Assembly (NCBI GenBank): GCA_017483945.1
Contig: JAFUUE010000091.1
Location: forward strand, 1-35,629
Reading direction: 5' to 3'
Length of the DNA stretch: 35,629 bases
DNA from: Paludibacteraceae bacterium
Lineage (GTDB): Bacteria; Bacteroidota; Bacteroidia; Bacteroidales; Paludibacteraceae
How positions within the stretch are numbered: the stretch's first letter is position 1; the number at the start of each line of letters is the position of its first letter. Made by a program: the position numbers and the translations under genes. Shown piece after piece: positions 4,390 through 34,294 of this stretch. The notes under the pieces are model-generated. The model had not been told where the DNA came from, searched no databases, and worked only from the letters and a program-made list of their open reading frames with translations.

Positions 4390-4422
4390 ACAGACCTGGA
4401 ACAGACCTGGAACAGAGCTGAC
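4390..4422 (+). repeat. 11-bp tandem array, family B (ACAGACCTGGA), 3 units
   Basis: Three contiguous 11-bp units: ACAGACCTGGA, ACAGACCTGGA, ACAGAGCTGAC. The last unit changes its end from GGA to GAC and is followed by CC. The same terminal variant ends the other B arrays (10745-10777, and 26606-26671 in reverse). It is located in the transcribed spacer between rmlC and rmlD. Confidence 0.9.
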
Positions 4423-4458
4423 CCTGCTTCCGCCCATAAAATCAGGCTCTTGCATGCG

Positions 4459-4513
4459 TCAGGTAACGGTCAGGTAACGGTCAGGTACGGGTCAGGTACG
4501 GGTCAGGTACGGG
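4459..4513 (+). repeat. 11-bp tandem array, family A (TCAGGTAACGG / TCAGGTACGGG), 5 units
   Basis: Two units of TCAGGTAACGG are followed by three units of TCAGGTACGGG, exactly 11 bp each. The array starts 36 bp after array B ends and stops 11 bp before the rmlC stop codon. Other A arrays are at 10682-10725, 26537-26569 (reverse) and 26727-26769. Confidence 0.9.
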
Positions 4514-4524
4514 AGCCGGACGCG

Positions 4525-5085
4525 TTAGTCGAGGTCGCGGAACACGTCGCCGAGGTCGCGCAGCAGGGGGTGCTTCCCGTCTTTCTCGCTGAGGATGCGG
4601 TCGGCCTTAGGGATGCGCCAGTCGATGCCGAGGGCCGGGTCGCTGAGCAGCAGCCCGCCGTCAGCCTCGGGGTGGTAGAGGTTGTCGCATTTATAGGTGA
4701 AGACGGCCGTGTCGCTGAGCACGGAGAAGCCGTGGGCGAAGCCCCGCGGGATGTAGAACTGCCGGTGGTTGTCGCCGGACAGCTCCACGGCGAAGTGTTG
4801 CCCGTAGGTGGGGCTCCCGTGCCGCAGGTCCACTGCCACATCGAGCACCCGCCCCGAGAGGCAGGATACCAACTTGGCCTGGGTGTAGGGCGGACGCTGG
4901 AAATGCAGTCCGCGTACGACTCCGTAGCTGCTGCACGACCGGTTATCCTGCACGAAGCGTGCGGTGATGCCCGCGGCGCGGTACCGCTCTTCGTTGTAAG
5001 TCTCTTCGAACCACCCGCGGGCGTCGCGGAACACCTGCGGCTCAATAACCAGCAGACCCTCTATCGGCGTTTGTGTTACTTGCAT
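4525..5085 (-). CDS. rmlC: dTDP-4-dehydrorhamnose 3,5-epimerase RmlC
   Basis: A 186-residue cupin epimerase, normal length for the family, converting dTDP-4-keto-6-deoxyglucose to its L-rhamno epimer. The catalytic signature VVRGLHFQ carries the base histidine. DLRHGSPTYG (conserved family segment) and FYIPRGFAHGFSVLSD (active-site region) are present. The start MQVTQTPIEGL matches the usual family N-terminus. The ATG lies 19 nt after the stop of the upstream GH13 gene, so the two are probably on one transcript. rmlD follows after a repeat-containing spacer. Confidence 0.95.
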   Translation of the reverse strand: MQVTQTPIEGLLVIEPQVFRDARGWFEETYNEERYRAAGITARFVQDNRSCSSYGVVRGLHFQRPPYTQAKLVSCLSGRVLDVAVDLRHGSPTYGQHFAVELSGDNHRQFYIPRGFAHGFSVLSDTAVFTYKCDNLYHPEADGGLLLSDPALGIDWRIPKADRILSEKDGKHPLLRDLGDVFRDLD

Positions 5086-5104
5086 GTTGTCAGTCGTTTG
5101 AGCG

Positions 5105-7525
5105 TTATCGAACCAGCCGTCCCATCAGGTCGTAGTAGCGGCCGTTGCGGACCACATAGACCACACCGTCCAGCAGTACCTTGTCGGCCTTGGCCTCCTC
5201 GGACTGCACCTCCTCCACGGGGGTGTAGTTGATGTCGCTGATGACGGGTGCCTGTACGGCGGAGCCGGTGAAGATGCGCAGCTCGCCCGGCGCCAGGGAG
5301 ACGGACGATGACGTCATCTTGGCGGCGTTGTTGTAGTAGTCGTACCATGTGCCGGCGGGCAGGTTGACCGTCTGGTTGCCGCTCACGGCGAAGTTAGCGG
5401 CGGCGAAGACGTTGGTGCCCCACTGGATAGTGCGCAGCGGTTGCCCGCCGTTCAGGCTGGCGGCGGTCGGGTTGCCTGCGAAGACGTTGGGCATCAGCTT
5501 GGTACGCAGGGCGACTGCCTGTGCGCTGCGGCGGAAGGCGTTCAGCCGGTCGGGGTCGTTGAAGTAGCCCTTCGAGTCGGGGTGGGTCTTCTTGTTGCAG
5601 CGGTAGTCGCTGTTCTCGGCATTGGGATGGTCCACGTCGGAGTTGATGGAGAAGTCATAGCCTATCTCCTCGAACTGCCAAATCATGTGTGAGCCGTTGA
5701 GCAGGACGTTGAAGGCGATGTTGGCCGGCACGCGTGCGATACGTGCGGCGGTGTTGGTGGGCAGGTCGCCGTTGCCGTATTTCTTGGCTTTGTACTGCAT
5801 GCGTTCCTCGTCGTGCGACTCGCAGTAGCTGACATAGCCGTCCTGGTTGGCGGAGTTGAAGGCGTCCTTGTTGCTCTGTATCCAGCCCATTGCCGTCTCT
5901 TGGTAGGCCTCGCTGGTGTTGTTCCAGCAGAGCATGCCCCCGTTGATGAGCTGCGGGCGCTCTGTGTCCATATTGCTGCCCCAGTGCTCGAGGATGAAGT
6001 AGGCGCCGGGCGACGCGGCCTGCACGCCGTTGGTGTAGTAGTCCTTGATGTTCTGCACCGAGGTGTTGGCCACGTTGGAGCAGAATCCGTGGCTCAGGTC
6101 CATGCGGAAGCCGTCCACTTTGTACTCCGTGAGCCAGTACTTGAGTGCGCGGATGAACATCTTATGCGCCGGCTCGAAGCCGTGGTTCCAGTCCTCATAG
6201 ACGTTGTCGGGGTGGGGGGCGGTGACGTTGAACCAGGGGTTGCTGGCCAGGTCGGTGCCGTAGGGGTAGAGCTTGTTCATCGGGTTGAGGCCTGTGGCGT
6301 GGTTGAAGACCATGTCCATGATGACGGCGATGCCGCGGCGGTGGCACTCGTCGATGAAGGCCTTGAACATCTCCGGCGAGCCGTAGGCGCGGTCGAGGGC
6401 GAAGTAGTGGTTGGGCGAGTAGCCCCAGTTGTAGTTGCCGTCGAACTCGCAGACGGGCATCAGCTCAATGGCGTTGACGCCGAGGTTCTGGATATAGTTC
6501 AGCTTGTTCATCAGTGCGGGGATGGAGCGCAGGGCGGTGTAGTCATAGACCCAGACCTCGTAGATGACGAGGTTGTTCTTGTCCGGGCGCTTGAAGTTGA
6601 GCGTGGCCTGGCTCCATGGGTAGGCCGGTTTGCCGGGCTGTATGACGGTCACATAGCCGCCGTCGGCGCCCTTGATGGGGTAGTCGATGAGGGTCGGGTC
6701 CACCGACTTGGGCTCCCAAGCGTCGTCGGGGTGGATGACCTTCTCGGAGAAGAGGTCGGATATCTGCTTCTTGACGCCGTCGGCGCGTACCACGGCGTAC
6801 TGGAAGCGGTACTCTTTGCCGGGGGTCAGGCCGGTGAGGCGTATCCAGAAGTAGTTACCGTCGCGCTTGAGTTGGTACTGGTTGTTGAGTTTCCAGTCGG
6901 TCATGTCGCCCAGTAGGAACACGTGCTGCGCGGGCGCCGTCTTGCTGGCGGCATAGGTGCACAGGGTGACGGCAGTCGGGTCGTTGGCGTCGTAGTAGAT
7001 GCCCTGGTCGATGCCGGTGGGGCGGGTCTGCTGCTGGCATGCGGCGGGGGTGAAGCCGGCCCATATGTCGGAGCTGCTGCTGTCCTCGCCCAGGATGATG
7101 AAGATGTCACCTCCGGCTGCGGTCTTGCCCTCCTTGCTGCCGCCGGGGCCGTCGTGGAAGACGAAGGCCAGCGCGGTGACCTCCGTGCCGGCGGGGATGT
7201 GGTAGAAGTCGTACATGTTGTTGATGACCAGTTGCCACTTGCCGTCGGTGGTGGCGGTGAGTTGGGGCTGGTCGGCGGCGCGCCAGTTGGAGCCTGTCGC
7301 GTCGGGTGTGCCGATGACGCCGAGCCACTTCTGCGTGGCGGTGCAGTAGCCGGTGTGCGCGTAGCACTTGGTGGCGGTCCTCATGCCCCCGTTGCCGCCG
7401 GCGGGGTCAAACGTGATGACAATCTGGCCGGTGTAGCCGGGTTGGATGACTGCCGGAGTGGTGGTCACCTGTGCCGTAAGTGTCAGTGCGACACAGGAAA
7501 GGAGAAAAAGGAATACTTTTTTCAT
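5105..7525 (-). CDS. secreted GH13 alpha-amylase-family enzyme
   Basis: An 806-residue exported alpha-glucan-active enzyme. A signal peptide (MKKVFLFLLSCVALTLTAQ) is followed by an N-terminal beta domain resembling a starch-binding module (about 20-165). Next comes a CBM48/isoamylase-N-like domain (about 170-300; HVFLLGDMTDWKLNNQYQL), then the GH13 barrel (about 310-700) and a C-terminal beta domain. Catalytic regions are intact: DMVFNH, nucleophile Asp476 in GFRMDLSH, acid/base Glu513 in ILEHWGS, and Asp572 in ESHDEER. The domain order suits a debranching or branching-type or alpha-amylase activity; I cannot name the exact specificity. The last 25 residues form a tail shared with two other secreted proteins here. 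A matching promoter lies upstream, and rmlC follows 19 nt downstream. Confidence 0.9.
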   Translation of the reverse strand: MKKVFLFLLSCVALTLTAQVTTTPAVIQPGYTGQIVITFDPAGGNGGMRTATKCYAHTGYCTATQKWLGVIGTPDATGSNWRAADQPQLTATTDGKWQLVINNMYDFYHIPAGTEVTALAFVFHDGPGGSKEGKTAAGGDIFIILGEDSSSSDIWAGFTPAACQQQTRPTGIDQGIYYDANDPTAVTLCTYAASKTAPAQHVFLLGDMTDWKLNNQYQLKRDGNYFWIRLTGLTPGKEYRFQYAVVRADGVKKQISDLFSEKVIHPDDAWEPKSVDPTLIDYPIKGADGGYVTVIQPGKPAYPWSQATLNFKRPDKNNLVIYEVWVYDYTALRSIPALMNKLNYIQNLGVNAIELMPVCEFDGNYNWGYSPNHYFALDRAYGSPEMFKAFIDECHRRGIAVIMDMVFNHATGLNPMNKLYPYGTDLASNPWFNVTAPHPDNVYEDWNHGFEPAHKMFIRALKYWLTEYKVDGFRMDLSHGFCSNVANTSVQNIKDYYTNGVQAASPGAYFILEHWGSNMDTERPQLINGGMLCWNNTSEAYQETAMGWIQSNKDAFNSANQDGYVSYCESHDEERMQYKAKKYGNGDLPTNTAARIARVPANIAFNVLLNGSHMIWQFEEIGYDFSINSDVDHPNAENSDYRCNKKTHPDSKGYFNDPDRLNAFRRSAQAVALRTKLMPNVFAGNPTAASLNGGQPLRTIQWGTNVFAAANFAVSGNQTVNLPAGTWYDYYNNAAKMTSSSVSLAPGELRIFTGSAVQAPVISDINYTPVEEVQSEEAKADKVLLDGVVYVVRNGRYYDLMGRLVR

Positions 7526-7617
7526 GGGTATAATTAGTTAGTTGGTGATTCGGTGTTCGGTGTTGCCGTGGGCCGCTCGGGGACTCGGTCGGAGACCGCC
7601 CGCGGGAATCGGCGATA

Positions 7618-7649
7618 CAAAGGTAGTGATTTTTCTTGATATACGCAAG
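7618..7649 (-). promoter_or_regulatory. promoter of the GH13 gene
   Basis: On the minus strand, -33 CTTG (7646-7649, within CCTTGCGTAT) and -7 TACCTTTG (7618-7625) are 20 bp apart. The leader to the ATG at 7525 is about 85 nt. It may drive the GH13-rmlC-rmlD-DUF2461 unit, since no further promoter of this type appears before position 3393. Confidence 0.75.
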
Positions 7650-7710
7650 GGTTGCCGCCGTTCACGGCCACTTTTTTTTGTTGTGCGGCGGGTAGGGTGG
7701 GCATAAAAAG

Positions 7711-7746
7711 ACCGGCAGAGCCGCATAGGGATGCGGCTCTGCCGGT
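7711..7746 (-). terminator. intrinsic terminator of secG
   Basis: A perfect 16-bp stem (7711-7726 with 7731-7746) has a 4-nt loop. On the minus strand it is followed by CTTTTTATG, giving a classical Rho-independent terminator 57 nt past the secG stop. Confidence 0.9.
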
Positions 7747-7802
7747 AGGTTGGTCGGGGAGGGACTGTCGGCCCGGCGGCCCGGAGCAGGCTCCGTGTGC
7801 GC

Positions 7803-8168
7803 TTATTGCGCAGCCTCTTCGTTGAAGTCCGCAGCCGGAGCGGCGGTCTCAACGCTCGATTTGAGGTTGTCGATAGCCTCCTGGCTCACCTTGCTGTTCT
7901 GCAGCTGGCTGTCCTGTCCGTTGCCTGCGTTGTCGCTCTTGCCGAGTCCGACGGCAAAGATGCTCAGCAGCACGATGATAGCGATGAGGCTCCACGTCGT
8001 TTTCTCCAGCACATCAGCCGTCTTGGGGGCGCCCATCACCTGATTGCCTCCGGCAAAACCCGATGCCAGACCGCCGCCCTTGCTGTTCTGGATGAGCACA
8101 AGGAAGGTCAGCGCGAGGGCCAGAATGACGATTATTACAACCAATGTTGTTACAATAGTACTATTCAT
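7803..8168 (-). CDS. secG: preprotein translocase subunit SecG
   Basis: A 121-residue inner-membrane protein of the SecYEG channel. Two hydrophobic helices (about 5-24 and 58-76) flank the conserved cytoplasmic loop LVLIQNSKGGGLASGFAGGNQVMG. The acidic and alanine-rich tail after residue 78 is variable in the family. It has its own promoter and a strong terminator, so it is monocistronic. Confidence 0.93.
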   Translation of the reverse strand: MNSTIVTTLVVIIVILALALTFLVLIQNSKGGGLASGFAGGNQVMGAPKTADVLEKTTWSLIAIIVLLSIFAVGLGKSDNAGNGQDSQLQNSKVSQEAIDNLKSSVETAAPAADFNEEAAQ

Positions 8169-8228
8169 ATCGATGTATTTTTAATGTTTATTCGGTTTTG
8201 GGGTGCATCTGCGCACAAAATGCGAATG

Positions 8229-8260
8229 CAAAGGTACAACAAAAATTGCATATATGCAAG
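8229..8260 (-). promoter_or_regulatory. promoter of secG
   Basis: On the minus strand, -33 CTTG (8257-8260, within CTTGCATATA) and -7 TACCTTTG (8229-8236) are 20 bp apart. The leader is about 53 nt. It lies just past the 3' end of the Fur-family gene. Confidence 0.8.
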
Positions 8261-8295
8261 AGGGATGTGCATTTTTTCCGCAAACGGGGCATTTT

Positions 8296-8760
8296 CTACT
8301 TCTTGCCGGCGGCCAGACGGCGGCAGACCTTGCATGTGCCATACACGTAGAGCGAGAAGTGGCTCATGAGGAAATTGCTGTAGCGCCGCGCCTGGAGCAG
8401 GTTCTGCACGGCGGTGTCGCGGAAGTCGGCCACGCGCCCGCACCGGGTGCAGATAATCTGCAGGTGCGTGTCGCCCCGCGTGAGCAGTTCGTAGGTGGCC
8501 TTCTTATGCCCGTACTGGCGGTTGAGGGGGTAGAGGATATGTGCGTCGGTCAGCAGACTCAGCGTGTTATAGACCGTGGCGGGGCTGATGTGCTCCTCGC
8601 GGCAGAGGACGATGAGTTGTTCGGCGGAGAAAGGGCCGTGCAACGCGCATACGTGACGCAGCACCCACTCGCGCTCCTGCGTGTGGCGCAGGCCGTGCGC
8701 GTCTATATAGGTGTTCAGGCGCTCCGCCGCCTCCTGGTAAACGGTCTCCTCCTTGGTCAT
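8296..8760 (-). CDS. Fur-family transcriptional regulator
   Basis: A 154-residue metal-responsive repressor-type protein. The winged helix spans about residues 25-90, with recognition helix region HISPATVYNTLSLLTDAHIL. Two zinc-binding cysteine pairs are present: Cys104-x2-Cys107 (CTRC) and Cys143-x2-Cys146 (CKVC). The hinge carries HLQIICTRCG, as in Fur/PerR/Zur proteins. Which metal or peroxide signal it senses cannot be told from sequence. Its ATG overlaps the stop of the GNAT gene (ATGA), so they are translationally coupled. Confidence 0.9.
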   Translation of the reverse strand: MTKEETVYQEAAERLNTYIDAHGLRHTQEREWVLRHVCALHGPFSAEQLIVLCREEHISPATVYNTLSLLTDAHILYPLNRQYGHKKATYELLTRGDTHLQIICTRCGRVADFRDTAVQNLLQARRYSNFLMSHFSLYVYGTCKVCRRLAAGKK

Positions 8761-9887: not shown

Positions 9888-9914
9888 GGTCGGGTATATT
9901 GTGAAAAAACAGGG

Positions 9915-9946
9915 CAAAGGTACGATAAAAACGGCAATTACGCAAG
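9915..9946 (-). promoter_or_regulatory. promoter of the GNAT-fur operon
   Basis: On the minus strand, -33 CTTG (9943-9946, within CTTGCGTAAT) and -7 TACCTTTG (9915-9922) are 20 bp apart. It decides the start codon of the GNAT gene. It is divergent from the LOG gene promoter 16 bp away. Confidence 0.8.
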
Positions 9947-9961
9947 TAAAACGGCTAAAAA

Positions 9962-9993: not shown

Positions 9994-10039
9994 TCACCGC
10001 TTACGCCGCTAATATGAACTTGTTAATCCCTCTTTCAGT

Positions 10040-10681: not shown

Positions 10682-10725
10682 TCAGGTAACGGTCAGGTAA
10701 CGGTCAGGTAATGGTCAGGTAACGA
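10682..10725 (+). repeat. 11-bp tandem array, family A (TCAGGTAACGG), 4 units
   Basis: Four contiguous units: TCAGGTAACGG twice, then TCAGGTAATGG and TCAGGTAACGA. It lies 63 bp downstream of the LOG gene and is followed 19 bp later by a family B array. Confidence 0.9.
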
Positions 10726-10744
10726 GGGGGATACGGAGCTCCTA

Positions 10745-10777
10745 ACGGACCTGGAACAGACCTGGAACAGACCTGAC
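10745..10777 (+). repeat. 11-bp tandem array, family B (ACAGACCTGGA), 3 units
   Basis: The units are ACGGACCTGGA, ACAGACCTGGA and ACAGACCTGAC, then CCTG. The terminal GGA-to-GAC change and following CC match the array at 4390-4422. Apart from these arrays, the stretch from 10619 to 10890 holds nothing I recognise. Confidence 0.9.
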
Positions 10778-10950: not shown

Positions 10951-11262
10951 ATGAACGATTACCGTTTTACGAATATTGACCAAGAGCCGACAGAGGCGCA
11001 ACTGAACCAGTTGATGTGCGAGGTGGCGGAAGAGGCCAAACAGCGTTGGGACATGGCTCGTACAGCCTATTTCGCACAAATCAAGCAAATGGCGCAAGCA
11101 TTATGAGGAAGCCCGTCCTGATTGTTATCGCAAGACGATAACTCGGTGGATGACAGGAATGCCCGACTGCTCTTCCGCACAACGGATGGTCAGTTCGCAA
11201 AGCAATATGTTGATTCGCTTCCGGAGTGGACGGAAACCATAACTGATAAACTGAAAGCATAA
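10951..11262 (+). pseudogene. small gene of unknown function, probably decayed
   Basis: From ATG 10951 a 51-residue frame (MNDYRFTNIDQEPTEAQLNQ...) ends at TGA 11104-11106. A second TGA in the same frame follows at 11119. From 11122 the same frame is open again to TAA 11260-11262 and reads like normal protein (NARLLFRTTDGQFAKQYVDS). Between the stops, another frame gives YEEARPDCYRKTI, protein-like and continuous in sense. The simplest reading is one protein of about 100 residues, mostly acidic and helical, broken by two compensating frameshifts or small indels. Alternatively the first 51-residue peptide alone is expressed. I do not recognise the family. The region is more AT-rich than its neighbours and has its own promoter and terminator. 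Confidence 0.5.
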
Positions 11263-16742: not shown

Positions 16743-16786
16743 GTGATTCTTTAGTGATTCTTTAGTGATTCATAGGTGATTCCTAT
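16743..16786 (+). repeat. 11-bp tandem array (GTGATTCTTTA), 4 units, in the susC leader
   Basis: The units are GTGATTCTTTA, GTGATTCTTTA, GTGATTCATAG and GTGATTCCTAT. All four keep GTGATTC; the last four bases vary. The array lies about 75 nt after the predicted start and 91 nt before the susC ATG. The rest of 16601-16877 shows nothing else I recognise. Confidence 0.9.
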
Positions 16787-25435: not shown

Positions 25436-25470
25436 CAAAGGTACTAAATATTTGCGAATATCGTGCCAAA
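25436..25470 (-). promoter_or_regulatory. promoter of the GH28 gene
   Basis: On the minus strand, the -7 element TACCTTTG (25436-25443) is clear. The best -33 element TTTG (25467-25470) is 23 bp away, not the usual 20. Like susC, this gene therefore has an imperfect core. It rules out the ATG at 25469 as start. Confidence 0.65.
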
Positions 25471-25515
25471 ATAATGCAAGAAAGTCAATTTTTCTACATT
25501 TTCAGTCAAAATATA

Positions 25516-25547
25516 GTTGCATATACCAAATAAAAGCAGTATCTTTG
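25516..25547 (+). promoter_or_regulatory. promoter of the secreted hypothetical gene
   Basis: -33 GTTG (25516-25519) and -7 TATCTTTG (25540-25547) are 20 bp apart. The leader to 25723 is about 170 nt. Confidence 0.7.
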
Positions 25548-25637
25548 CACCGTTGAATGGTGTGACCTCCGGCCTCGGCCGTTCGCACCGACAATACAGC
25601 CCCGGAGGAGCAATGGGACAACCGAGATGAGGTAAGA

Positions 25638-25659
25638 GCATAGCAGGGGCATAGCACAA
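25638..25659 (+). repeat. two-unit 11-bp repeat in a leader
   Basis: GCATAGCAGGG is followed by GCATAGCACAA, 8 of 11 matching. It lies in the untranslated leader of the 25723 gene. Weak alone, but it has the same period as the other arrays. Confidence 0.45.
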
Positions 25660-25722
25660 TGGAACATAAAGGTATAATATACATATTAACCTAATTTATT
25701 AACCAACTAAAAACTCAACATT

Positions 25723-26491: not shown

Positions 26492-26525
26492 AAGGACGCT
26501 CCGAGGCGAGGAGCGTCCTTTTTTT
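26492..26525 (+). terminator. intrinsic terminator of the 25723 gene
   Basis: An 11-bp perfect stem (26492-26502 with 26510-26520) has a 7-nt loop and ends in a run of seven T, 23 nt past the stop codon. Confidence 0.93.
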
Positions 26526-26536
26526 GTGAGACGGAA

Positions 26537-26569
26537 CCCGAACCTGACCCGAACCTGACCCGAACCTGG
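26537..26569 (-). repeat. 11-bp tandem array, family A in reverse, 3 units
   Basis: Plus-strand units are CCCGAACCTGA, CCCGAACCTGA and CCCGAACCTGG. On the minus strand this reads TCAGGTTCGGG, one base different from the TCAGGTACGGG units at 4481-4513. Confidence 0.88.
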
Positions 26570-26605
26570 TGGGTGGAAACGGCTGACTTACAGGGAATAG
26601 AATGG

Positions 26606-26671
26606 GTCAGCTTCGTTCCAGCATCGTTTCAGCATCGTTCCAGCTCTGTTCCAGCTCTGTTCCAGGTCTGT
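26606..26671 (-). repeat. 11-bp tandem array, family B in reverse, 6 units
   Basis: On the minus strand the units are ACAGACCTGGA, ACAGAGCTGGA (twice), ACGATGCTGAA, ACGATGCTGGA and the terminal ACGAAGCTGAC, then CC. Polarity and terminal GAC-CC are the same as in the arrays at 4390 and 10745. The 36-bp spacing to the reverse A array equals the B-to-A spacing at 4423-4458. Confidence 0.88.
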
Positions 26672-26726
26672 TAGGGGGTCTGAGAACCAGTCGAATAGCC
26701 GACGAGTCGGATAGTCAACTATTCCT

Positions 26727-26769
26727 TCAGGTAACGGTCAGGTAACGGTCAGGTAACGGCAGGTACGAG
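26727..26769 (+). repeat. 11-bp tandem array, family A, 3 full units plus a 10-bp unit
   Basis: TCAGGTAACGG three times, then CAGGTACGAG lacking its first T. It lies 18 bp past the hipA stop codon in the minus direction. With the reverse A array at 26537 it forms an imperfect inverted repeat around the B array. Confidence 0.88.
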
Positions 26770-26787
26770 TGTAGGGCGCGGAGGAAG

Positions 26788-28059
26788 TTATACGTAGGCG
26801 CGGGTGGACTCGATATAGTCGATGGTCGCTTGCGGGATGTCGGAGTGCTCCTTGGCGAGCGTGCGCCAGCGGCTTACCCCCTCCTGCACTTGGTCGATGA
26901 TTTTCGCCGCCTTCTTGATATTCATCTCGTATGCCACTCGGAGCAAGTCGTCACGGGTGATGGCCTCCCACTTGTTGTTAATGGACATCTGGTGTGTCTG
27001 CGTCCATGCTCCGCCGGCACTGTATGCCCACGACATGTCATACGCCGGCGAGAGACGCCATGTGCCGCTTCTGTCCATGAGGAACGAGATATTCTTCGTA
27101 TGGTCGTCCTGATTGCGTGCCACCACGTTGAAGACCATTCGCCGGTAGAACTCTTCCGCATCGGTGTAGGGGAGGTGTAACCGGCGCATGATGCCAAAGG
27201 CCTGTTCGTAGGAATAGGCGTGGAGCATGTTGTAGTCATAGTGCGCAATGCCGCAGAGGGTCTGCATGTGTATCTTCCCGCCCTTCTCGCGGTCGAAGCG
27301 TCTGGTCATGAAATGTGCCCGTCCGTTCTCTCGCATCAGGCGGCACTCGGTCATTCGTATGCCGCACTCTTTGGCGAGCAGGTAGTGGATGTACTCTATC
27401 TCTCCGAAATGCTGCGGGTCGCCCAGCTCCTTGTTGGTCACTCCGTCCAACTTGAGCAACCAGTAGTCGAATCCTTCGGGCGCAGAGACTTGCCCGCTGC
27501 GCACCTCGCCCGTCTGGTCGTTATAGGCGATAACGGCCTTTGCCCGTTGTCCTCCGGCAGATGTTCCCACGCGGATGATGTCCATGAGTGCGTCTGTCGG
27601 TTGTGTGAAGTTCGTCTGTAGTGTCTCTTTGCTTTGCAGCACTTCGCGCGCGGTCTCTACCAGACTCTTTATTTCAATCGTGTGTTCAATATCCAGTTGC
27701 CGCTCTTGAGAGGGTATAAACTCCAGTGCCCCCATGCTGCGTTTGCCTTGGAAACACAGCCGCTCTACAGGGTTAGCGGTTTGTCTATTGTGGGCAATGA
27801 GCCATTTGTCCAGCAACGCACGGCCAAAAGCGTCCGGCAACGCCTCTGCTAATAAGCCTGGCAAACCCATAAACGTTCGTCTGGACAGCTCGGAAAAGGA
27901 GTAGATACGAGGGCCTAACGGCATCATCAGCGGGGCGATTTCCAAACCGATGTTGATGAACTCGGGGGCGTACTCAAACGTAGCGTAGCCTTGACGCTCA
28001 TTCCAGAGGATAACACCGACGAGGTGATTCCACAGGTGGACTTCTGCTGCGATTACCAT
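26788..28059 (-). CDS. hipA: HipA-family serine/threonine kinase toxin
   Basis: A 423-residue HipA-like kinase. E. coli HipA causes growth arrest by phosphorylating glutamyl-tRNA synthetase; the target here is unknown. The N-terminal couple_hipA region is about 1-110. The ATP loop is GTSAGGQRAK (165-174). The catalytic stretch NVVARNQDDHTKNISFL contains Asp318-Asp319 and is followed by the metal-binding LSPAYDMSW. All key residues are present, so it should be active. It overlaps the stop of hipB by 7 nt, placing antitoxin first and toxin second as usual. Composition is less GC-rich than the flanks, suggesting acquisition by transfer. Confidence 0.92.
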   Translation of the reverse strand: MVIAAEVHLWNHLVGVILWNERQGYATFEYAPEFINIGLEIAPLMMPLGPRIYSFSELSRRTFMGLPGLLAEALPDAFGRALLDKWLIAHNRQTANPVERLCFQGKRSMGALEFIPSQERQLDIEHTIEIKSLVETAREVLQSKETLQTNFTQPTDALMDIIRVGTSAGGQRAKAVIAYNDQTGEVRSGQVSAPEGFDYWLLKLDGVTNKELGDPQHFGEIEYIHYLLAKECGIRMTECRLMRENGRAHFMTRRFDREKGGKIHMQTLCGIAHYDYNMLHAYSYEQAFGIMRRLHLPYTDAEEFYRRMVFNVVARNQDDHTKNISFLMDRSGTWRLSPAYDMSWAYSAGGAWTQTHQMSINNKWEAITRDDLLRVAYEMNIKKAAKIIDQVQEGVSRWRTLAKEHSDIPQATIDYIESTRAYV

Positions 28060-28394
28060 GTTGATTCGGGTTTAGAGGGTTGATGGTAGTTATGGTTGCG
28101 TACCCGTTGAGGCGTGGTACTCTTACGCAGAGCCTCTGCGTAAGCAATCGGACTGATTTCTTCCTCACGAAATAGGGGCTCCAGTAAGTCAAGGCTCCTC
28201 AGCGTCCGCAGTACTTGCAGGAAAGTGAGTAATGAACTATTCTGACCTTTTTCGATATTTCCGACCGCAGAAAGGGCGACACCTGCCTGTTCAGACAGTT
28301 GTTTTTGGGTAAGATTCGCCGTAATCCGACGATATTTCACCTTTTGCCCAATCTGTACTAATAGGGCATTATTGGAGGAGAAATAGATGTCCAT
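28053..28394 (-). CDS. hipB: HipB-family antitoxin, XRE-type HTH repressor
   Basis: A 113-residue DNA-binding protein with a Cro/C1 helix-turn-helix at about 14-70 (VKYRRITANLTQKQLSEQAGVALSAVGNIEKGQ). It should neutralise HipA and repress its own operon. The basic, proline-containing C-terminal tail (about 95-113, KSTTPQRVRNHNYHQPSKPE) resembles the flexible antitoxin tails of the family. A perfect inverted repeat overlaps its promoter. Confidence 0.9.
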   Translation of the reverse strand: MDIYFSSNNALLVQIGQKVKYRRITANLTQKQLSEQAGVALSAVGNIEKGQNSSLLTFLQVLRTLRSLDLLEPLFREEEISPIAYAEALRKSTTPQRVRNHNYHQPSKPESTW

Positions 28395-28511: not shown

Positions 28512-29996
28512 TCAGGCGGGGTGGGCGATGAGGAGGGCGGCGCGGATGCCGTCGAGTGCGGAGGAGGTGATGCCTCCGGCATAGCCGGCTCCTTCGCCGA
28601 CGGGGTAGAGCAGCGGGTGTGAGACGGACTGCATCGTCTCGGGGTCACGCACGATGCGTACGGGGCTGCTGCTGCGGCTCTCCACGCCGAGGATGAGTGC
28701 GTCGTTGGTCAGGTAGCCGGGATACTTGCGGTCGAAGTCGCGGAAGCCCTGCTGCAGCCGTTGGGCGATATTGGCGGGCAGCCATAGGTCGAGCCTCGAG
28801 GGCACGCATCCGGGCAGGTAGGAGCATGGGGGCAGGTCGCGGCTCTCGCGTCCTTCGACGAAGTCGCGCAGCCGTTGTGCCGGTGCCTGTTGGGCGGGTC
28901 CGCCGTGCTGCTTGGCCAGTATCTCCAGTTGCTCCTGCTCGTCGAGCGCTTCGGCGGCGCTGCCATGCGGCGGCACCTCGACGACGATGCCGCTGTTGGC
29001 ATAGGGGGAGTTGCGATGGCTGGCCGACATGCCGTTGACCACACATCCATCGCTGTCGCTGCCGGCCGGTACCATATGCCCTCCGGGGCACATACAGAAC
29101 GAGTACACGCCCCGTCCGGCGACCTGCGTGACCAGGCTGTAGGACGCGTTGCCGAGGTAGGGGACGTCGTGGCGGTTGTGGTGATAGACGAGGTCGTTGA
29201 TGAGCGCCTGCGGATGCTCGACGCGTACGCCGAGTGCGAAGCCCTTGGCCTCCATAGCCACGCCGCTGCGGTAGAGCATGCGGTAGGTGTCGTGTGCCGA
29301 GTGGCCGATAGCGAGCAGGACGGCGCAGCCGGTGAAGACGCGCTTGTCTTCGGTGTGGACGCTGTTGGCTTCGATAGCCGTCACCTTGGTGCCGAAGAGC
29401 ACTTGGCCTCCGTGGCTGATGATGCACTCGCGCATGGCGCGTATGATGCCGGGCAGGCGGTCGCTGCCGATATGTGCGTGCGTCTCGTAGAGGACGGTGT
29501 CGGGCGCGCCGAAATAGTGGAAGAACTCCATGACGCGCTGCATGTTGCCCCGCTTCTTGCTGCGCGAGAAGAGCTTGCCGTCGCTGAAGGTGCCGGCGCC
29601 TCCCTCTCCGAAGCAGTAGTTGGACTCGGTGTTGAGGCCCTCGTTGCGGTTGATGAGGGCGATGTCGCGCTTGCGTGCGGAGACCTCTTTGCCCCGTTCG
29701 AGGACGATAGGGCGTATGCCGTGTTCGAGCAGCGTGAGTGCGGCGAACAGGCCTGCGGGTCCGGCTCCGACGATGACGACCTGCCGGGTGCTGTGGTGTA
29801 CGTCGCGGAAGACAGGCGGCTCGTAGAGCGGTACGGGGGCGTCGTGGGGCACGGGGCGGCCCCGGTCGTCGGCGAGCAGCGTGAGGTTGACCTTGATTTG
29901 GCGTTGGCGTGCATCAACAGAGCGACGCACCACCCGGTACGTCGCCTCCATCTGTTTCGCCTCGGCAGGCGACAAAGTCAACTGCAGCGTCTGCAT
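28512..29996 (-). CDS. FAD-dependent dehydrogenase of unknown substrate (COG2509-like)
   Basis: A 494-residue flavoprotein. The dinucleotide-binding motif VVIVGAGPAGLFAALTLLEHG starts near residue 72, with ERGKEVSARKRDI just downstream. ESNYCFGEGGAGTFSDGKL is distinctive for this family of uncharacterised FAD-dependent dehydrogenases. SFCMCPGGHMVPAGS contains a CxC pair. The C-terminal GEGAGYAGGITSSALDG closes the FAD site. An extra N-terminal region (about 1-65) resembles a small alpha/beta domain found in the family. The ATG at 29996 overlaps the recA stop (TGATG), so the gene is translationally coupled to recA; no function in repair is known to me. Confidence 0.85.
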   Translation of the reverse strand: MQTLQLTLSPAEAKQMEATYRVVRRSVDARQRQIKVNLTLLADDRGRPVPHDAPVPLYEPPVFRDVHHSTRQVVIVGAGPAGLFAALTLLEHGIRPIVLERGKEVSARKRDIALINRNEGLNTESNYCFGEGGAGTFSDGKLFSRSKKRGNMQRVMEFFHYFGAPDTVLYETHAHIGSDRLPGIIRAMRECIISHGGQVLFGTKVTAIEANSVHTEDKRVFTGCAVLLAIGHSAHDTYRMLYRSGVAMEAKGFALGVRVEHPQALINDLVYHHNRHDVPYLGNASYSLVTQVAGRGVYSFCMCPGGHMVPAGSDSDGCVVNGMSASHRNSPYANSGIVVEVPPHGSAAEALDEQEQLEILAKQHGGPAQQAPAQRLRDFVEGRESRDLPPCSYLPGCVPSRLDLWLPANIAQRLQQGFRDFDRKYPGYLTNDALILGVESRSSSPVRIVRDPETMQSVSHPLLYPVGEGAGYAGGITSSALDGIRAALLIAHPA

Positions 29997-31003
29997 CACT
30001 TCTTGATAATCTCCATGATTTGTGCCTCGAGTTCGTCGGCCAGGTCGGGATTATCGCGGAGGACGTTCTTTGCCGCGTCGCGTCCCTGCGCCAGTTTCTG
30101 GTCGTTATAGCTGAACCATGAGCCTGATTTCTTGATGATTTCGTGCTCTACGGCCATGTCCAGTATCTCGCCTGTGCGGGAGATGCCTTCGTTGAACATG
30201 AGGTCGAACTCGGCGTTGCGGAAGGGAGGTGCGACCTTGTTCTTGACCACTTTGACGCGCACCTGGTTGCCGATGACCTCGTCGCCGTCCTTGAGTTGGC
30301 CGATGCGGCGGATGTCGAGTCGTACGGAGGCGTAGAACTTGAGCGCATTACCGCCCGTTGTGGTCTCGGGATTGCCGAACATGACGCCGATTTTCTCGCG
30401 TAACTGGTTGATAAAGATGCAGGTGGTGTTGGTCTTGTTGATGGTGGCGGTCAGTTTGCGGAGGGCCTGGCTCATGAGGCGTGCCTGCAGTCCGACCTTG
30501 TTGTCTCCCATGTCTCCTTCGATCTCCGCCTTGGGTGTGAGTGCTGCGACCGAGTCGATGACGATGAGGTCCACGGCTGCCGAGCGGATGAGTTCGTCGG
30601 CGATGTCGAGTGCGTCCTCGCCGCAGTCGGGCTGGGCGATGAGCAGGTTGTCGGTGTCCACGCCGAGCCGCTCGGCATAGAAGCGGTCGAAGGCGTGCTC
30701 CGCGTCGATGATGGCCGCTATACCGCCTTGGCGCTGCACCTCGGCCATCGCATGGATAGCGAGTGTCGTCTTACCGGACGACTCGGGGCCGTATATCTCG
30801 ATGACGCGTCCGCGGGGGTATCCGCCCACGCCGAGCGCGATGTTGAGTCCGACCGAGCCGGTGGGTATGACGGGCACATCCTCGACCTTGTCGTCTCCGA
30901 GTTTCATGATAGCTCCTTTGCCGAAGTCCTTGTCTATCTTCGCCATAGCCATCTGCAGGGCTTTCAGCTTCTCTGCTGACGGCATCTTCTTCTCTTCTGC
31001 CAT
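29996..31003 (-). CDS. recA: recombinase RecA
   Basis: A 335-residue ATP-dependent strand-exchange protein for homologous recombination and SOS signalling. Walker A is GPESSGKTT (72-80) and Walker B is [10 protein letters not shown]. The L2 loop region reads [37 protein letters not shown]. The C-terminal domain is shorter and less acidic than in E. coli, as in other Bacteroidota. A canonical promoter lies upstream, and no obvious LexA-type palindrome is seen. The FAD dehydrogenase gene overlaps its stop. Confidence 0.97.
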
Positions 31004-31067
31004 AGTTGTGTTGTTTATAGGGTGAGTGGCGCCGGGCGCCGTTAGGGGTTAGTTCGTTATCGTTATG

Positions 31068-31099
31068 CAAAGGTACGACAAAAAAATGACATGCGCAAT
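31068..31099 (-). promoter_or_regulatory. recA promoter
   Basis: On the minus strand, -33 ATTG (31096-31099, within ATTGCGCATG) and -7 TACCTTTG (31068-31075) are 20 bp apart. The leader is about 58 nt. The -33 element sits in the loop of the nth terminator hairpin. Confidence 0.8.
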
Positions 31100-31117
31100 A
31101 GCATGTCTCATTTTTTC
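31080..31117 (-). terminator. terminator of the nth operon, overlapping the nth stop and recA -33
   Basis: GACATGC (31088-31094) and GCATGTC (31101-31107) form a 7-bp stem with a 6-nt loop. It is flanked by A and T runs that extend the pairing past a one-base bulge. In the minus direction the stem is followed by a long T run. The right arm abuts the nth stop codon (31108-31110). Confidence 0.75.
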
Positions 31118-31752
31118 TGTGTTTGTTGGAAGTGGCGGCAGCAGTCGGTGAGTTCGCAGTTGTGGCACTGCGGTTTGCGCGCTTGGCATATGTACCGTCC
31201 GTGGAGGAGCAGCCAGTGGTGTGCTTTGGGTATGAGGCGGGCGGGGATATACTTGACCAGTTGCCGCTCGGTCTGCAGGGGATTACGGCTGCCGGTGGTC
31301 AGTCCGATACGCTCGCTCACGCGGAAGATATGGGTGTCCACCGCCATGGTCGGTTGCTGCCATATGACGGCACAGACGACGTTTGCCGTCTTGCGTCCCA
31401 CGCCCGCCAGGGTCTGCAGGTCGTCGATGTTGTCCGGCACCTGCCCACCGTAGGCGGAGACAAGTCGCTGTGCAGCAGCCACTAAGTGCTGCGCCTTGGC
31501 GTTGGGGTAACTGACGGAGCTGATGTAGGTGAGGACCTGTTCGGGTGTGGCGGCCGCCATGGCCTCGGGGGTGGGGTAGGCGGCGAAGAGGGCGGGCGTG
31601 ACCATGTTGACGCGCTTGTCGGTGCACTGGGCGCTGAGCATGACCGCCACGAGCAGTTGGAAGGGGTTGTCATAGTGCAACTCGCTCTCCGCTACCGGCA
31701 TGTTAGCCTCGAACCACTGCAGGCAGGTCTCAAATCGTTGCTTGGTCGTCAT
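31108..31752 (-). CDS. nth: endonuclease III (DNA glycosylase/AP lyase)
   Basis: A 214-residue base-excision repair enzyme removing oxidised pyrimidines. The helix-hairpin-helix LQTLAGVGRKTANVV carries catalytic Lys121, and VDTHIFRV carries Asp139, one residue offset from E. coli numbering. The 4Fe-4S cluster pattern is complete: Cys189-x6-Cys196-x2-Cys199-x5-Cys205. It overlaps the upstream DUF4924 gene by 23 nt, so it is translationally coupled, and it ends in a terminator just before the recA promoter. Confidence 0.95.
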   Translation of the reverse strand: MTTKQRFETCLQWFEANMPVAESELHYDNPFQLLVAVMLSAQCTDKRVNMVTPALFAAYPTPEAMAAATPEQVLTYISSVSYPNAKAQHLVAAAQRLVSAYGGQVPDNIDDLQTLAGVGRKTANVVCAVIWQQPTMAVDTHIFRVSERIGLTTGSRNPLQTERQLVKYIPARLIPKAHHWLLLHGRYICQARKPQCHNCELTDCCRHFQQTQKK

Positions 31753-32200
31753 CGTCGCGGTAGGTTTGACTCAGGAAACGCAGCAGGTCCGTCGCCTGTT
31801 TCTGTACGGCGGCAGTCTCCTGACTGATAGGCTTTTGGCGCAGGCGGAGCATCATGATTTGATAGAGCAGGACCAGGCAGGCCTCGATGTCCGACATGGT
31901 CGGCCGGTCGGTCTTGGCTTTGAGCAGGGCGAGTTGGGGCTGCAACCGCAGGATAGCCGCGCGGTAGGCGGCCTCCTCGCCGAGCAGGCGGGTGTGCAGT
32001 TCCTCCAGTTCGCCGAGGGCGTTCTGCGCCAGTTGCAGGTGTCCGCCCTCGATGATGCCCTCGGTGTGCATCATGGCACTCAGTTCGCCCAGCTCGGGGT
32101 CGGCCTCCGCCTGCTGCGGGAACGCGCGCAGATAATCCTCTATCTGCCAGAGATACAGGATGTATTCGGCTATATTGTCACGCTTACTCTTCATCGTCAT
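31730..32200 (-). CDS. DUF4924-family protein
   Basis: A 156-residue helical soluble protein resembling DUF4924, a Bacteroidota family with no function known to me. The typical N-terminal segment is SKRDNIAEYILYLWQIEDYLRAF. The rest is amphipathic helix with a leucine- and glutamate-rich central part (NALGELEELHTRLLGEEAAY). The end is highly acidic (YRDDDDQATI) and lies in the 23-nt overlap with nth. A start two codons later (MKSKRD) is equally possible. Confidence 0.75.
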   Translation of the reverse strand: MTMKSKRDNIAEYILYLWQIEDYLRAFPQQAEADPELGELSAMMHTEGIIEGGHLQLAQNALGELEELHTRLLGEEAAYRAAILRLQPQLALLKAKTDRPTMSDIEACLVLLYQIMMLRLRQKPISQETAAVQKQATDLLRFLSQTYRDDDDQATI

Positions 32201-32221
32201 AAGACACGATTATTAGCTATG

Positions 32222-32635
32222 TTATTCTTCATCGTCGTCGAATGTGTCGAATAGCGGGTCGTAGTCGTCGCTGAGGAAGGTCTCTATCTCGCGGCGGTCT
32301 TTCTTGGTCGGGCGTCCGGTGCCCCGGTCGCGTCCGGTCTGTCCGGCCAGCCGTGCCAGTTCGAGCAGCTCCAGTTGGTCGGGGGCTGTTATATCCCGCA
32401 TGTAGTCAGGCACAAGTTTGGCACCGAGGCGGTGCTCGGACAGCTGAAGCACACGGTAGGTGTAAGTGATGGGGCCTTTGCGCACGCTGAACACGTCGCC
32501 GACATGGAAGGTGCGTGCGGGTTTGAGTTGCACGCCATTCATGGTGACGCGCCCTTTCTTGCAGGCATCGGCCGCGATAGAGCGCGTCTTGTAGATGCGC
32601 ATGGCGAACAGGTATTTATCGACGCGTACTTCCAT
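32222..32635 (-). CDS. S4-domain RNA-binding protein (Hsp15-like)
   Basis: A 137-residue protein with one S4 domain at about 1-60: MEVRVDKYLFAMRIYKTRSIAADACKKGRVTMNG. This is the arrangement of E. coli Hsp15, which binds the 50S subunit carrying stalled peptidyl-tRNA. The tail after about 85 is charged, first basic (TGRDRGTGRPTKKDRREIE) then acidic (DDYDPLFDTFDDDEE). Location next to pth, which frees peptidyl-tRNA, fits ribosome rescue. A 21-bp direct repeat (CTTTCGACTATT at 32639 and 32660) lies in the spacer upstream. Confidence 0.87.
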   Translation of the reverse strand: MEVRVDKYLFAMRIYKTRSIAADACKKGRVTMNGVQLKPARTFHVGDVFSVRKGPITYTYRVLQLSEHRLGAKLVPDYMRDITAPDQLELLELARLAGQTGRDRGTGRPTKKDRREIETFLSDDYDPLFDTFDDDEE

Positions 32636-32656
32636 TCTCTTTCGACTATTGACTAT

Positions 32657-33223
32657 TTACTTTCGACTATTATACTGATTCATCGTGCGTTCTACGCCCT
32701 GCAGGCAGAACGAGCGGACTATCTCCGCCGCCGTCTTGAGCCGTTCGGGCAGTGCCTGCTCCTCCTCCCCGGTCCATGTGCCGAGCACGTAGTTGATTTG
32801 TGCGCCGTGGACGAACTCGGCGCCGATGCCGAAGCGCAGGCGGGCGTAGTTCCGGGTGCACAGGCAATCCTGGATATTACGCAGTCCGTTGTGACCCCCT
32901 TCGCTCCCCTTGCCTCGCAAACGCAGCGTACCAAAAGGCAGCGCAAGGTCGTCCACGAGCACTAACAGTTGCTCTATCGGTATGTTCTCCTTCTGCAGCC
33001 AGTAGCGTACGGCCGTGCCGCTGAGGTTCATGTAGGTGGAGGGCTTGAGCAGCACCAGTTCGGCGTTCTTGATGCGGCAGCGCGCGGTGAAGCCGTAGCG
33101 TCCGTCCACCCACGCGGCCTGTTGGTCGGCGGCGATATAGTCCGCGATGCGGAATCCTATGTTATGGCGGGTGTCGGCGTACTCGTCGCCGATATTGCCC
33201 AGACCGACAATGAGGTATTTCAT
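32657..33223 (-). CDS. pth: peptidyl-tRNA hydrolase
   Basis: A 188-residue enzyme that hydrolyses peptidyl-tRNA released from ribosomes. The start at 33223 gives [21 protein letters not shown] with Asn10 and catalytic His20, matching E. coli positions. The longer frame opening at 33268 lies within a hairpin and adds residues absent from the family. [28 protein letters not shown] contains the conserved acidic residue and substrate-binding loop. The order rplY-pth-S4 protein is common in Bacteroidales. Confidence 0.95.
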
Positions 33224-33236
33224 GCTTTGTGTCGTT

Positions 33237-33277
33237 AGACAATAATTGAGCGTCGTTCGGGCGCTCAATTATTGTCT
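33237..33277. terminator. 16-bp perfect hairpin between rplY and pth
   Basis: A perfect 16-bp inverted repeat (33237-33252 with 33262-33277) with a 9-nt loop. The lower part is AT-rich and the top ends in GAGCG/CGCTC. No T tract follows on the minus strand, so it may be a partial terminator or processing site rather than a full stop. Confidence 0.6.
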
Positions 33278-33297
33278 GTTGTGAATGTGTCGGTTGA

Positions 33298-33861
33298 TTA
33301 CTTGGCGGCGGCAGCGCTCTGGCGGGTAGCCTTCACCTGAGCCACGCAAGCGTCCTTGACGTTCATCATCTTCAGACCCTCGATGTGGATATCGCCCACA
33401 GCCAGTTTCTTGCCGATGCCCAGTTCGGTCACATCCAGTACGATGCGCTCGGGTATCCGGGTGTAGATGCCGTTCACTTTGAGTTTGCGCATCTCCAGGC
33501 TCAGTTTACCACCGGCTTTCACACCCTCGGCGTGACCGGTCAGTTGCACGGGGATAGCCACGGTGACGGGCTTGTTCTCGTCCACTGCGAGGAAGTCGAT
33601 ATGGAGCAGTTTCTCGCTTACGGGGTGGAACTGGAGCTCCTTGATGACAGCCATCTGCTTCTTCTCGCCGATAGTCAGGGCAACAGCCATGGTGTCCGGC
33701 GTGTAGATGAGTTTGCGTACGTCTGCTGCAGCTACCGTGAAGGTCAGTTGCTCACCCAGTCCGTACAGGTTGCAGGGTACCAATTCCTCCTTGCGGAGAG
33801 CCTTGTTTGCTTTCTTGCCGTACTCCGAGCGGGGAGTGCCGACTAATTCGAATGTCTTCAT
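33298..33861 (-). CDS. rplY: 50S ribosomal protein L25 (CTC form)
   Basis: A 187-residue 5S rRNA-binding protein of the long CTC type. The N-terminal L25 domain (about 1-90: FELVGTPRSEYGKKANKALRKEELVPCNLYG) is followed by the TL5-like beta domain (about 95-180: VAIPVQLTGHAEGVKAGGKLSLEMRKLKVNG). The Ala/Lys-rich C-terminus is usual. The promoter lies about 105 nt upstream. A GGAGTC/GACTCC stem (33895-33919) in the leader could attenuate or autoregulate expression. Confidence 0.95.
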   Translation of the reverse strand: MKTFELVGTPRSEYGKKANKALRKEELVPCNLYGLGEQLTFTVAAADVRKLIYTPDTMAVALTIGEKKQMAVIKELQFHPVSEKLLHIDFLAVDENKPVTVAIPVQLTGHAEGVKAGGKLSLEMRKLKVNGIYTRIPERIVLDVTELGIGKKLAVGDIHIEGLKMMNVKDACVAQVKATRQSAAAAK

Positions 33862-33894
33862 TGTTAGTTAGTTATTAGTTGTGTTACTCAAAAT

Positions 33895-33919
33895 CGGAGT
33901 CGTCATCATGGGGACTCCG
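33895..33919 (-). promoter_or_regulatory. small hairpin in the rplY leader
   Basis: CGGAGTC (33895-33901) pairs with GACTCCG (33913-33919) around an 11-nt loop. On the minus strand it is followed by ATTTTG. It may be a weak attenuator or an L25 binding site. Confidence 0.35.
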
Positions 33920-33967
33920 TTTCCCATCGCACTTCGCGTTATTGGTTAGCCACGCGAAAAAAGCATG

Positions 33968-33999
33968 CAAAGTTACAACAAAAATCCGACATACGCAAG
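33968..33999 (-). promoter_or_regulatory. rplY promoter
   Basis: On the minus strand, -33 CTTG (33996-33999, within CTTGCGTATG) and -7 TAACTTTG (33968-33975) are 20 bp apart. Confidence 0.8.
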
Positions 34000-34026
34000 A
34001 GTTCGCGCGTTTTTTTGTTGACAATT

Positions 34027-34117
34027 CTACTTATACCCCTCTTACAGACTGCTTTTACCCTTCTTACAGACTACTTATCCCCTTCTTAGAGACTGTTTAT
34101 ACCCTTCTTATACCCAT
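34027..34117 (+). repeat. 22-bp tandem array with 11-bp subperiod, about 4 units
   Basis: CTTACAGACT at 34041 and 34063, CTTAGAGACT at 34085 and CTTATACCCA at 34107 recur every 22 bp. CTT also recurs at the half positions 34052 and 34074 (GTT at 34096), so the underlying period is 11 bp. It lies upstream of the rplY promoter. Confidence 0.85.
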
Positions 34118-34133
34118 GCCTATATACATCAAT

Positions 34134-34166
34134 AAACCATTACTAAACCATTACTAAACCGCTGCT
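34134..34166 (+). repeat. 11-bp tandem array (AAACCATTACT), 3 units
   Basis: The units are AAACCATTACT, AAACCATTACT and AAACCGCTGCT, then AAAC begins a fourth. It starts 16 bp after the 22-bp array. Confidence 0.9.
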
Positions 34167-34191
34167 AAACTGCAAGCGATAACGGACAATT

Positions 34192-34224
34192 TACGGAGGA
34201 TATACGGAGGATATACGGAGGATA
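34192..34224 (+). repeat. 11-bp tandem array (TACGGAGGATA), 3 identical units
   Basis: Three perfect copies of TACGGAGGATA, then ATACG. Identical units suggest recent expansion. Confidence 0.92.
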
Positions 34225-34261
34225 ATACGTCAAGCATCTTACTTCCAACTATATTTAAGGC

Positions 34262-34294
34262 GACTTTTTCGGTATATTTTTAGTAACTTTTTAG
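34262..34294 (+). repeat. degenerate 11-bp array (TAACTTTTTAG), 3 units
   Basis: GACTTTTTCGG, TATATTTTTAG and TAACTTTTTAG follow each other at 11-bp spacing, sharing the T run and nearby bases. It is a weaker match than the other arrays and could be chance in AT-rich DNA. From 33976 to 34336 I see no gene; the stretch is filled mainly by these arrays. Confidence 0.5.

Follow-up and report, generated by a model that had tools for sequence, protein, structure and literature searches.

Introduction

Several described systems come close to the repeats treated here. Long simple sequence repeats, in which units of up to 11 nt are repeated in tandem, are lineage-specific (Mrazek, 2007, via PMC4679880 and PMC4692102). 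REPINs (repetitive extragenic palindromic doublets forming hairpins) and BIMEs (bacterial interspersed mosaic elements) are short, dispersed intergenic elements made of an inverted pair whose spacer has a favoured length and is less conserved (PMC3116915), and CGTC repeats have been described in five phyla, Bacteroidetes among them (PMC3733652). In Porphyromonas gingivalis, a member of the Bacteroidales, dispersed minisatellites are carried by the BrickBuilt miniature inverted-repeat transposable elements (MITEs), which have units of 23 nt (41 nt in the related 464/PgRS elements) and terminal inverted repeats (PMC4596501). The centromere-like parC site of plasmid R1 consists of 11-bp direct repeats, at least two of which are needed for binding of ParR (PMC9426499). 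The present analysis deals with intergenic tandem arrays of 11-bp units in a contig of 35,629 nucleotides from a Paludibacteraceae bacterium (JAFUUE010000091.1, assembly GCA_017483945.1), hereafter called the window, and in the draft genome of which it is contig 10 (1,993,007 bases, 93 contigs, 89% complete).

Results and discussion

Inverted pairs of arrays with a 39-bp spacer

Arrays of the most frequent family, the CAGGT superfamily, were found to form inverted pairs in which ACCTG stands in the left arm and CAGGT in the right. The spacer was exactly 39 bp long in 22 of 25 such pairs, the remaining three measuring 17, 29 and 50 bp, and a first sample had given 39 bp for 13 of 14 spacers. 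A spacer of 39 bp corresponds to 44 bp from core start to core start, i.e. four units, and the core-to-core distance was 0 modulo 11 in 24 of the 25 pairs. The pairs were drawn from the first-listed places of 107 composite matches, and later contigs may hold more. Of 26 listed pairs, one was dropped as the second listing of an element (L320, 72 bp), and an element on another contig of the same genome (G000:C4, G000 being the label for the window's own genome) was excluded because of an altered core in the left array; by eye, the spacer of this element measures 39 bp.

Two of these composite elements are located in the window. The first (4389-4513) is composed of a left arm of CAGGTCTGTTC type (4389-4420, minus strand), the 39-bp spacer (4421-4459) and a right arm of TCAGGTAACGG / TCAGGTACGGG type (4458-4513, plus strand). 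The second (26536-26672) has a left arm of CAGGTTCGGGT type (26536-26568, minus strand), again a 39-bp spacer (26569-26607) and a right arm made of CAGCTTCGTTC / CAGCATCGTTC / CAGCTCTGTTC (about 26608-26672, plus strand). The inverted pairing of the arrays at 4390 and 4459 and of those at 26537 and 26606 had been overlooked in an earlier reading of the window, made from the letters alone (the sequence-only reading).

The 22 spacers displayed a mean identity of 0.56 (0.31-0.87), compared to 0.27 with their letters shuffled. Covariation between the halves of the 22 elements was assessed by swapping halves, and none was detected (permutation p 0.86 for the arrays and 0.35 for the spacer). The hypothesis of a hairpin, whether of RNA or of single-stranded DNA, was rejected, as the own halves of an element pair no better than halves of different elements. 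The length of the spacer is kept and the pairing is not, which points to a geometry of duplex DNA. The pairs show a fixed geometry between the arms that is free of hairpin constraint. Pairs in the opposite arrangement were at most one base off the 11-bp grid in 7 of 8 cases and pairs in the same direction at most two bases in 11 of 13 (both counted by hand), a fit that decayed units of once longer arrays would give equally well. The idea that one unit per helical turn is under selection, put forward in the sequence-only reading, is backed by the inverted pairs, whose arms stand in 11-bp register, and by no other observation.

The explanation favoured here, held with about as much doubt as confidence, is that the CAGGT arrays belong to REPIN/BIME-like dispersed, non-coding intergenic elements, with 11-bp minisatellite arms that are duplicated in whole units and kept in register by the geometry of the duplex. 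The arrays would gain and lose whole 11-bp units through local tandem duplication, and the CAGGT element would have spread within this species by copying. Its geometry may be held by a protein reading the duplex at 11-bp pitch, which could be an enzyme that mobilises the element or a DNA-binding protein that binds cooperatively. The remaining families would follow the same duplication length, and no spacing constraint was observed for them.

Period spectrum and unit families

The lag spectrum was established on 225 intergenic regions (65 kb) of the window's genome and is given as matches per 1000 ten-base windows, with Markov-shuffled and coding DNA as controls. Lag 11 reached 16.9 in intergenic DNA, compared to 0.13 in shuffled DNA (about 130-fold) and 0.26 in coding DNA. 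Lag 22 reached 10.3 (0.11 shuffled), and lag 33 was high too. Lags 7, 9, 10, 20 and 30 were also raised, the first three less than lag 11; lags 8 (0.49 vs 0.11) and 12 (0.33 vs 0.07) rose slightly, and lag 13 was at background. Arrays were called with Tandem Repeats Finder and a dedicated array caller (working score threshold 13), the latter detecting 59 arrays of period 11 in these regions and 0.2 per shuffled set. A chance origin of the 11-bp arrays is excluded. The excess of 11 and 22 bp across the genome, which the sequence-only reading had proposed as its own test, is confirmed by the lag spectrum.

A larger census was made on 0.92 Mb of the genome, with 365 intergenic regions (105 kb). 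It yielded 92 period-11 arrays together with 10 whose period is 22; four of these ten are built from heptamers. Arrays of period 7 (17), 9 (10), 10 (17) and 20 (9) coexist with them, so that the claim of a single constant unit length fails at the scale of the genome. Single-linkage clustering of the period-11 units at two mismatches distributed the 92 arrays over 17 sequence clusters (50, 9, 6, 6, 4, 3 and smaller), meaning that many unit families have the 11-bp length in common. In the largest cluster, that of the CAGGT superfamily, 48 of the 50 arrays carry a CAGGT, CAGCT or CAGCA core. Exact dimers of TCAGGTAACGG number 51 on 28 contigs (a trimer being counted twice), and the pattern CAGGT-N6-CAGGT-N6-CAGGT occurs 106 times in the genome. 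Since this superfamily, with 50 of the 92 arrays in one cluster, is dispersed, the view of the sequence-only reading that no sequence-specific element takes part is not supported. Furthermore, 14-mers shared by four or more gaps account for 8% of the intergenic DNA, indicating that a noticeable share of it consists of dispersed repeats.

The lengths of the 92 arrays are close to whole unit numbers, with 31-35 bp in 41 arrays and 43 bp in 8. In arrays of at least four units, the mismatches between units amounted to 0.99, 1.66, 2.25 and 2.43 at lags 1-4, and to 2.0 at lag 5 (n=3). In relatives of the bacterium, for which periods 11 and 22 were pooled, they increased on average from 1.58 at lag 1 to 2.25 at lag 4 and stood at 2.0 for lag 5 (n=6). 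A pooled analysis of both periods comprised 102 arrays in 20 clusters, and the lag distances of the own genome alternate in it owing to the 22-bp arrays. Neighbouring units are most alike and the difference grows with distance, which is the mark of local duplication. Copying in steps of 11 bp, one of the two origins considered in the sequence-only reading, fits well with this gradient and with the two length peaks.

Among the other periods, 10-bp arrays of GTTTAAAATG type were observed to nearly fill short co-directional gaps of the window's genome (L037:14770-14834, L048:7667-7736 and L175:12175-12218). A second composite, in which a 10-bp array of AAACCATCTT type lies between the inverted 9-bp arrays TGCACTTTC and GAAAGTGCA, occurs at L039:15154-15295, L043:10087-10251 and L172:13268-13463, and partially in L162, L165 and L178.

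Relatives and controls

Relatives were chosen by means of a flavoprotein of the window, and the best 80 named loci were kept (1.51 Mb). These 80 belong to Paludibacteraceae and uncultured Bacteroidales metagenome-assembled genomes, with 62-74% amino-acid identity in the flavoprotein; many are from rumen or gut, as judged from record titles. Congeners aligned across the entire 2.5-kb recA region showed up to about 73% DNA identity. In the intergenic DNA of the 80 loci, lags 7, 8 and 11 with their multiples were highest, 9 and 10 being less raised, and lag 11 was raised in 49 loci. The 11-bp arrays of the relatives have other unit sequences, some of which recur between species. With genes called by a simple gene caller, these arrays were more frequent in convergent than in co-directional gaps (1.28 vs 0.24 per kb; 22 of 48 arrays convergent). 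The reverse was seen for 7-bp arrays (0.12 vs 0.81 per kb), whose median distances to the stop and to the next start are 5 and 13 bp. The contrast between arrays of 11 bp and of 7 or 8 bp gave a Fisher p of 4e-9, uncorrected for shared ancestry or repeated sampling of one region. From other families of the order, 20 control loci were taken, of which 18 had sufficient length; their 27.6 kb of intergenic DNA contained a single array of period 22 and none of period 11, and lag 11 stood at 0.20 vs 0.06 in this small sample.

Arrays of 8 bp were also noticed in relatives, often in co-directional gaps (L067:3462-3532, L092:11575-11640, L101:11536-11619 and L122:8919-8996). Several have palindromic-looking cores (TATCGA, ACTAGA, TACGTA) that vary from species to species, and some arrays share one gap.

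The limited set of raised lags in relatives, carried by other sequences, would also be expected if replication slippage in this lineage favoured units of 7-11 bp and the arrays were neutral leftovers outside genes. This purely mutational explanation is considered rather unlikely. It agrees with the increase of unit differences with lag, both here and in relatives, and with array lengths near whole unit numbers. Published surveys of long simple sequence repeats dealt with units of 1-11 nt, and polymerase slippage was put forward for heptamers (PMC4679880, PMC4692102). Slippage alone, however, does not produce one unit at dozens of unlinked sites without common flanks. It predicts neither the 39-bp spacing nor the differing gene contexts of the relatives' 7- and 11-bp arrays.

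Pattern searches were extended to 178 genomes, namely the window's own and 177 congeners. The composite pattern had 107 matches in the window's genome and 0-4 in each congener, which is chance level; any match was seen in 41 of the 178 genomes, and one congener (G133) had 15 matches to the backwards control. CAGGT was not supported as a genus-wide signal: the threefold CAGGT-N6 pattern was present in 30 of the 178 genomes and its backwards control in 21 (counted by hand). A broader and unlikely proposal would be a genus-wide array-binding system reading the duplex at a pitch of about one helical turn. Unit sequence and reader protein would then turn over between species, the pitch and the inter-arm geometry (44 bp, four units) would be conserved, and arrays of 7, 8 and 10/11 bp, each in its own gene context, would be scaffolds for distinct protein geometries. 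Ribbon-helix-helix proteins that bind heptad, 8-bp and 11-bp arrays are known.

Repetitive extragenic palindromes and a Y1 transposase-like gene

The genome also contains repetitive extragenic palindromes (REPs) of CGTC type (GGGCGAGCCGCCCGCGTCCCAGGTG), in inverted pairs about 77-87 bp apart. A single match to Y1_Tnp was obtained (33-35 bits, second part of the profile only), in a gene at G000:C9:464-1280 (= L039:464-1280, minus strand). An inverted pair of CGTC-type REPs is found on each side of this gene, and the locus, in which REP feet are repeated every 15 bp, resembles those of REP-associated tyrosine transposases (RAYTs) with their REPINs. The 1.2 kb inspected around the gene showed no CAGGT array of 11-bp units. 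Among 67 REP right halves, 54 run on as TCCCA, and in at least 38 of these the continuation reads TCCCAGGTG, a foot that includes the array core CAGGT. Moreover, the order of ACCTG left and CAGGT right is common to REP pairs and composite array elements. At 75 REP feet, second feet were found at 15 bp (3), 30 bp (3) and 11 bp (1), the control offsets 100-130 giving 8 in total.

From these similarities the CAGGT arrays could be taken as amplified feet of the RAYT-REPIN system, the single Y1 transposase recognising TCCCAGGTG beside REP hairpins and the arrays being derived substrates. Such an origin is improbable: hairpins are missing from the arrays, CAGGT is absent from most 11-bp clusters, the Y1 match is restricted to one part of the profile, and a distance from REP foot to array was obtained in two cases only, both out of register. 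A RAYT as genus-wide driver was rejected as well, Y1_Tnp being about equally common among the 178 genomes with CAGGT arrays (13 of 30) and without (55 of 148).

Genomic placement

Of the CAGGT-superfamily arrays, 35 were located in co-directional, 16 in convergent and 2 in divergent gaps, and few are inside called genes. They are depleted in divergent gaps, which hold 2 of these 53 arrays and 15% of the intergenic bases (p 0.009). This distribution resembles that of REP-type elements. The orientation relative to transcription is mixed; the reading as Rho sites was weighed on these counts and set aside.

A role of the arrays at the ends of transcripts, as terminators or stabilisers formed by structured RNA or by hairpins of single-stranded DNA, would account for the inversion of ACCTG and CAGGT and for the relatives' preference for convergent gaps. 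The chance of this being the case is small. The lack of compensatory change between the halves of the 22 elements had already weakened it, the mixed orientation does not favour it, and a hairpin with a T-run, recognised by eye, adjoins the arrays of the window at about 26500-26526.

BrickBuilt-like MITEs, with minisatellites inside a transposable element bounded by terminal inverted repeats, are the least probable explanation: they have the precedent of another Bacteroidales genome and the partly conserved flanks of CTGTT arrays and CCGTCGG array tails in their favour, but were already weakened by 27 TCAGGTAACGG arrays that end in the same phase of the unit with flank information near 0 bits and no terminal inverted repeats at constant ends, and the BrickBuilt unit measures 23 nt and not 11 (PMC4596501). 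The statement of the sequence-only reading that terminal inverted repeats are not visible is supported for this commonest unit.

Evidence against the favoured explanation

Several results weigh against REPIN/BIME-like elements with arms in duplex register. No protein is tied to the array elements, and the families of period 7, 9 and 10 fall outside a helical-turn rule. Recent common descent of the copies could account in part for the constant spacer length. A conserved core within arrays was not supported, as variable columns of 11-bp arrays were not significantly clustered (p 0.11 in the own genome, 0.98 in relatives), the lowest p among six tests being 0.026 for the relatives' 7-bp arrays. 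A binding scaffold explains the spacing; the scattered variable columns give it no help. The bias towards convergent genes is absent in the window's genome (11-bp arrays 1.13 and 1.03 per kb; contrast p 0.16). Three of 22 TCAGGTAACGG clusters lie inside called genes.

Further features of the window

All eleven main arrays of the window were recovered by Tandem Repeats Finder and the array caller, ten with period 11 and one with period 22, and all sit outside called genes. Besides the arms of the composite elements, a TCAGGTAACGG array (10682-10724, plus strand) is followed by one of CAGGTCTGTTC type (10744-10775, minus strand); here the arrangement is reversed, with CAGGT ahead of ACCTG. A GTGATTCTTTA array without relation to CAGGT is located at 16743-16782 (plus strand), and another TCAGGTAACGG array at 26727-26765 (plus strand). 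Three arrays follow on the plus strand: the 22-bp array CTTATACCCTTCTTACAGACTG (34030-34110), the array TAAACCATTAC (34133-34170) and the array TACGGAGGATA (34182-34229), which recurs at G000:C1:4144-4187.

At least five unit sequences had been described as unrelated, and five unrelated groups can indeed be told apart (CAGGT, GTGATTCTTTA, CTTATACCCTT, TAAACCATTAC and TACGGAGGATA). Seven of the eleven arrays (4389, 4458, 10682, 10744, 26536, 26608 and 26727) nevertheless belong to one superfamily with a CAGG or CAGC core on either strand. Units are exact, as claimed, at 26536-26568 and 26727-26759, and mismatched in the other eight of the ten 11-bp arrays. For the array placed at 34027, the period of 22 stands, and the subperiod of 11 bp is weak, lag 11 giving 56% identity. 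The weaker cases fared poorly: 12331 and 34262 gave zero signal even with a lowered threshold, and 25638 scored 8, below the working threshold. Arrays occupy the gene-free stretches of 836, 717, 318, 277 and 187 bp, as had been stated for the longest ones, but not those at 7526-7802 and 25470-25722.

The 836-bp gap also contains a short ATG-started reading frame of about 51 codons (10951-11106), which was missed by the gene caller. The stretch 26788-28394, which adjoins the arrays of composite element 2, holds a gene for a HipA-like kinase (PF07804, PF13657) and, as its neighbour, a small open reading frame that looks by eye like a helix-turn-helix protein; the two may form a toxin-antitoxin pair. 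When the window was searched for RNA families at gathering scores, two tRNAs were the only matches, and the region 26530-26780 had no match in phage and plasmid collections.

Comparison with known systems

The arrays represent a natural case in which the length of a repeat is conserved and its sequence is not, so that mutation bias can be separated from selection on DNA geometry. The 39-bp rule predicts a protein and is open to test on cloned DNA without culturing the organism. In the literature listings consulted, no inverted element with fixed spacing and with 11-bp arrays for arms was described. Searches of the open literature for 11-bp intergenic repeats in Bacteroidetes, for parC with 39 bp and for tandem repeats in Paludibacteraceae returned nothing.

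Cyanobacterial short tandemly repeated repetitive (STRR) heptamers are defined by their 7-nt unit; the present genome has 17 arrays of period 7 and 92 of period 11. The parC repeats have the unit length in common with the arrays, yet they form a plasmid centromere with par genes, whereas the arrays are present in dozens of chromosomal copies. BrickBuilt elements likewise are dispersed minisatellites in Bacteroidales and differ in unit length and ends. As in long simple sequence repeats, units within 1-11 nt exceed chance; in most genomes of the surveys, heptamers are commonest, whereas here 11 dominates and one family has a composite geometry.

The CGTC-tagged REPs of this genome form a family separate from the 11-bp arrays, with the CAGGT foot in common. 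There is also a likeness with REPINs and BIMEs, whose short, intergenic and dispersed inverted pairs with a spacer of favoured length find their counterpart in the composite elements. Unlike in REPINs and BIMEs, the arms are 11-bp tandem arrays instead of hairpins and show no compensatory changes, and their link to the Y1 transposase of the genome is putative. Each ingredient of the composite elements has a precedent, in long simple sequence repeats, in REPINs and in MITE minisatellites.

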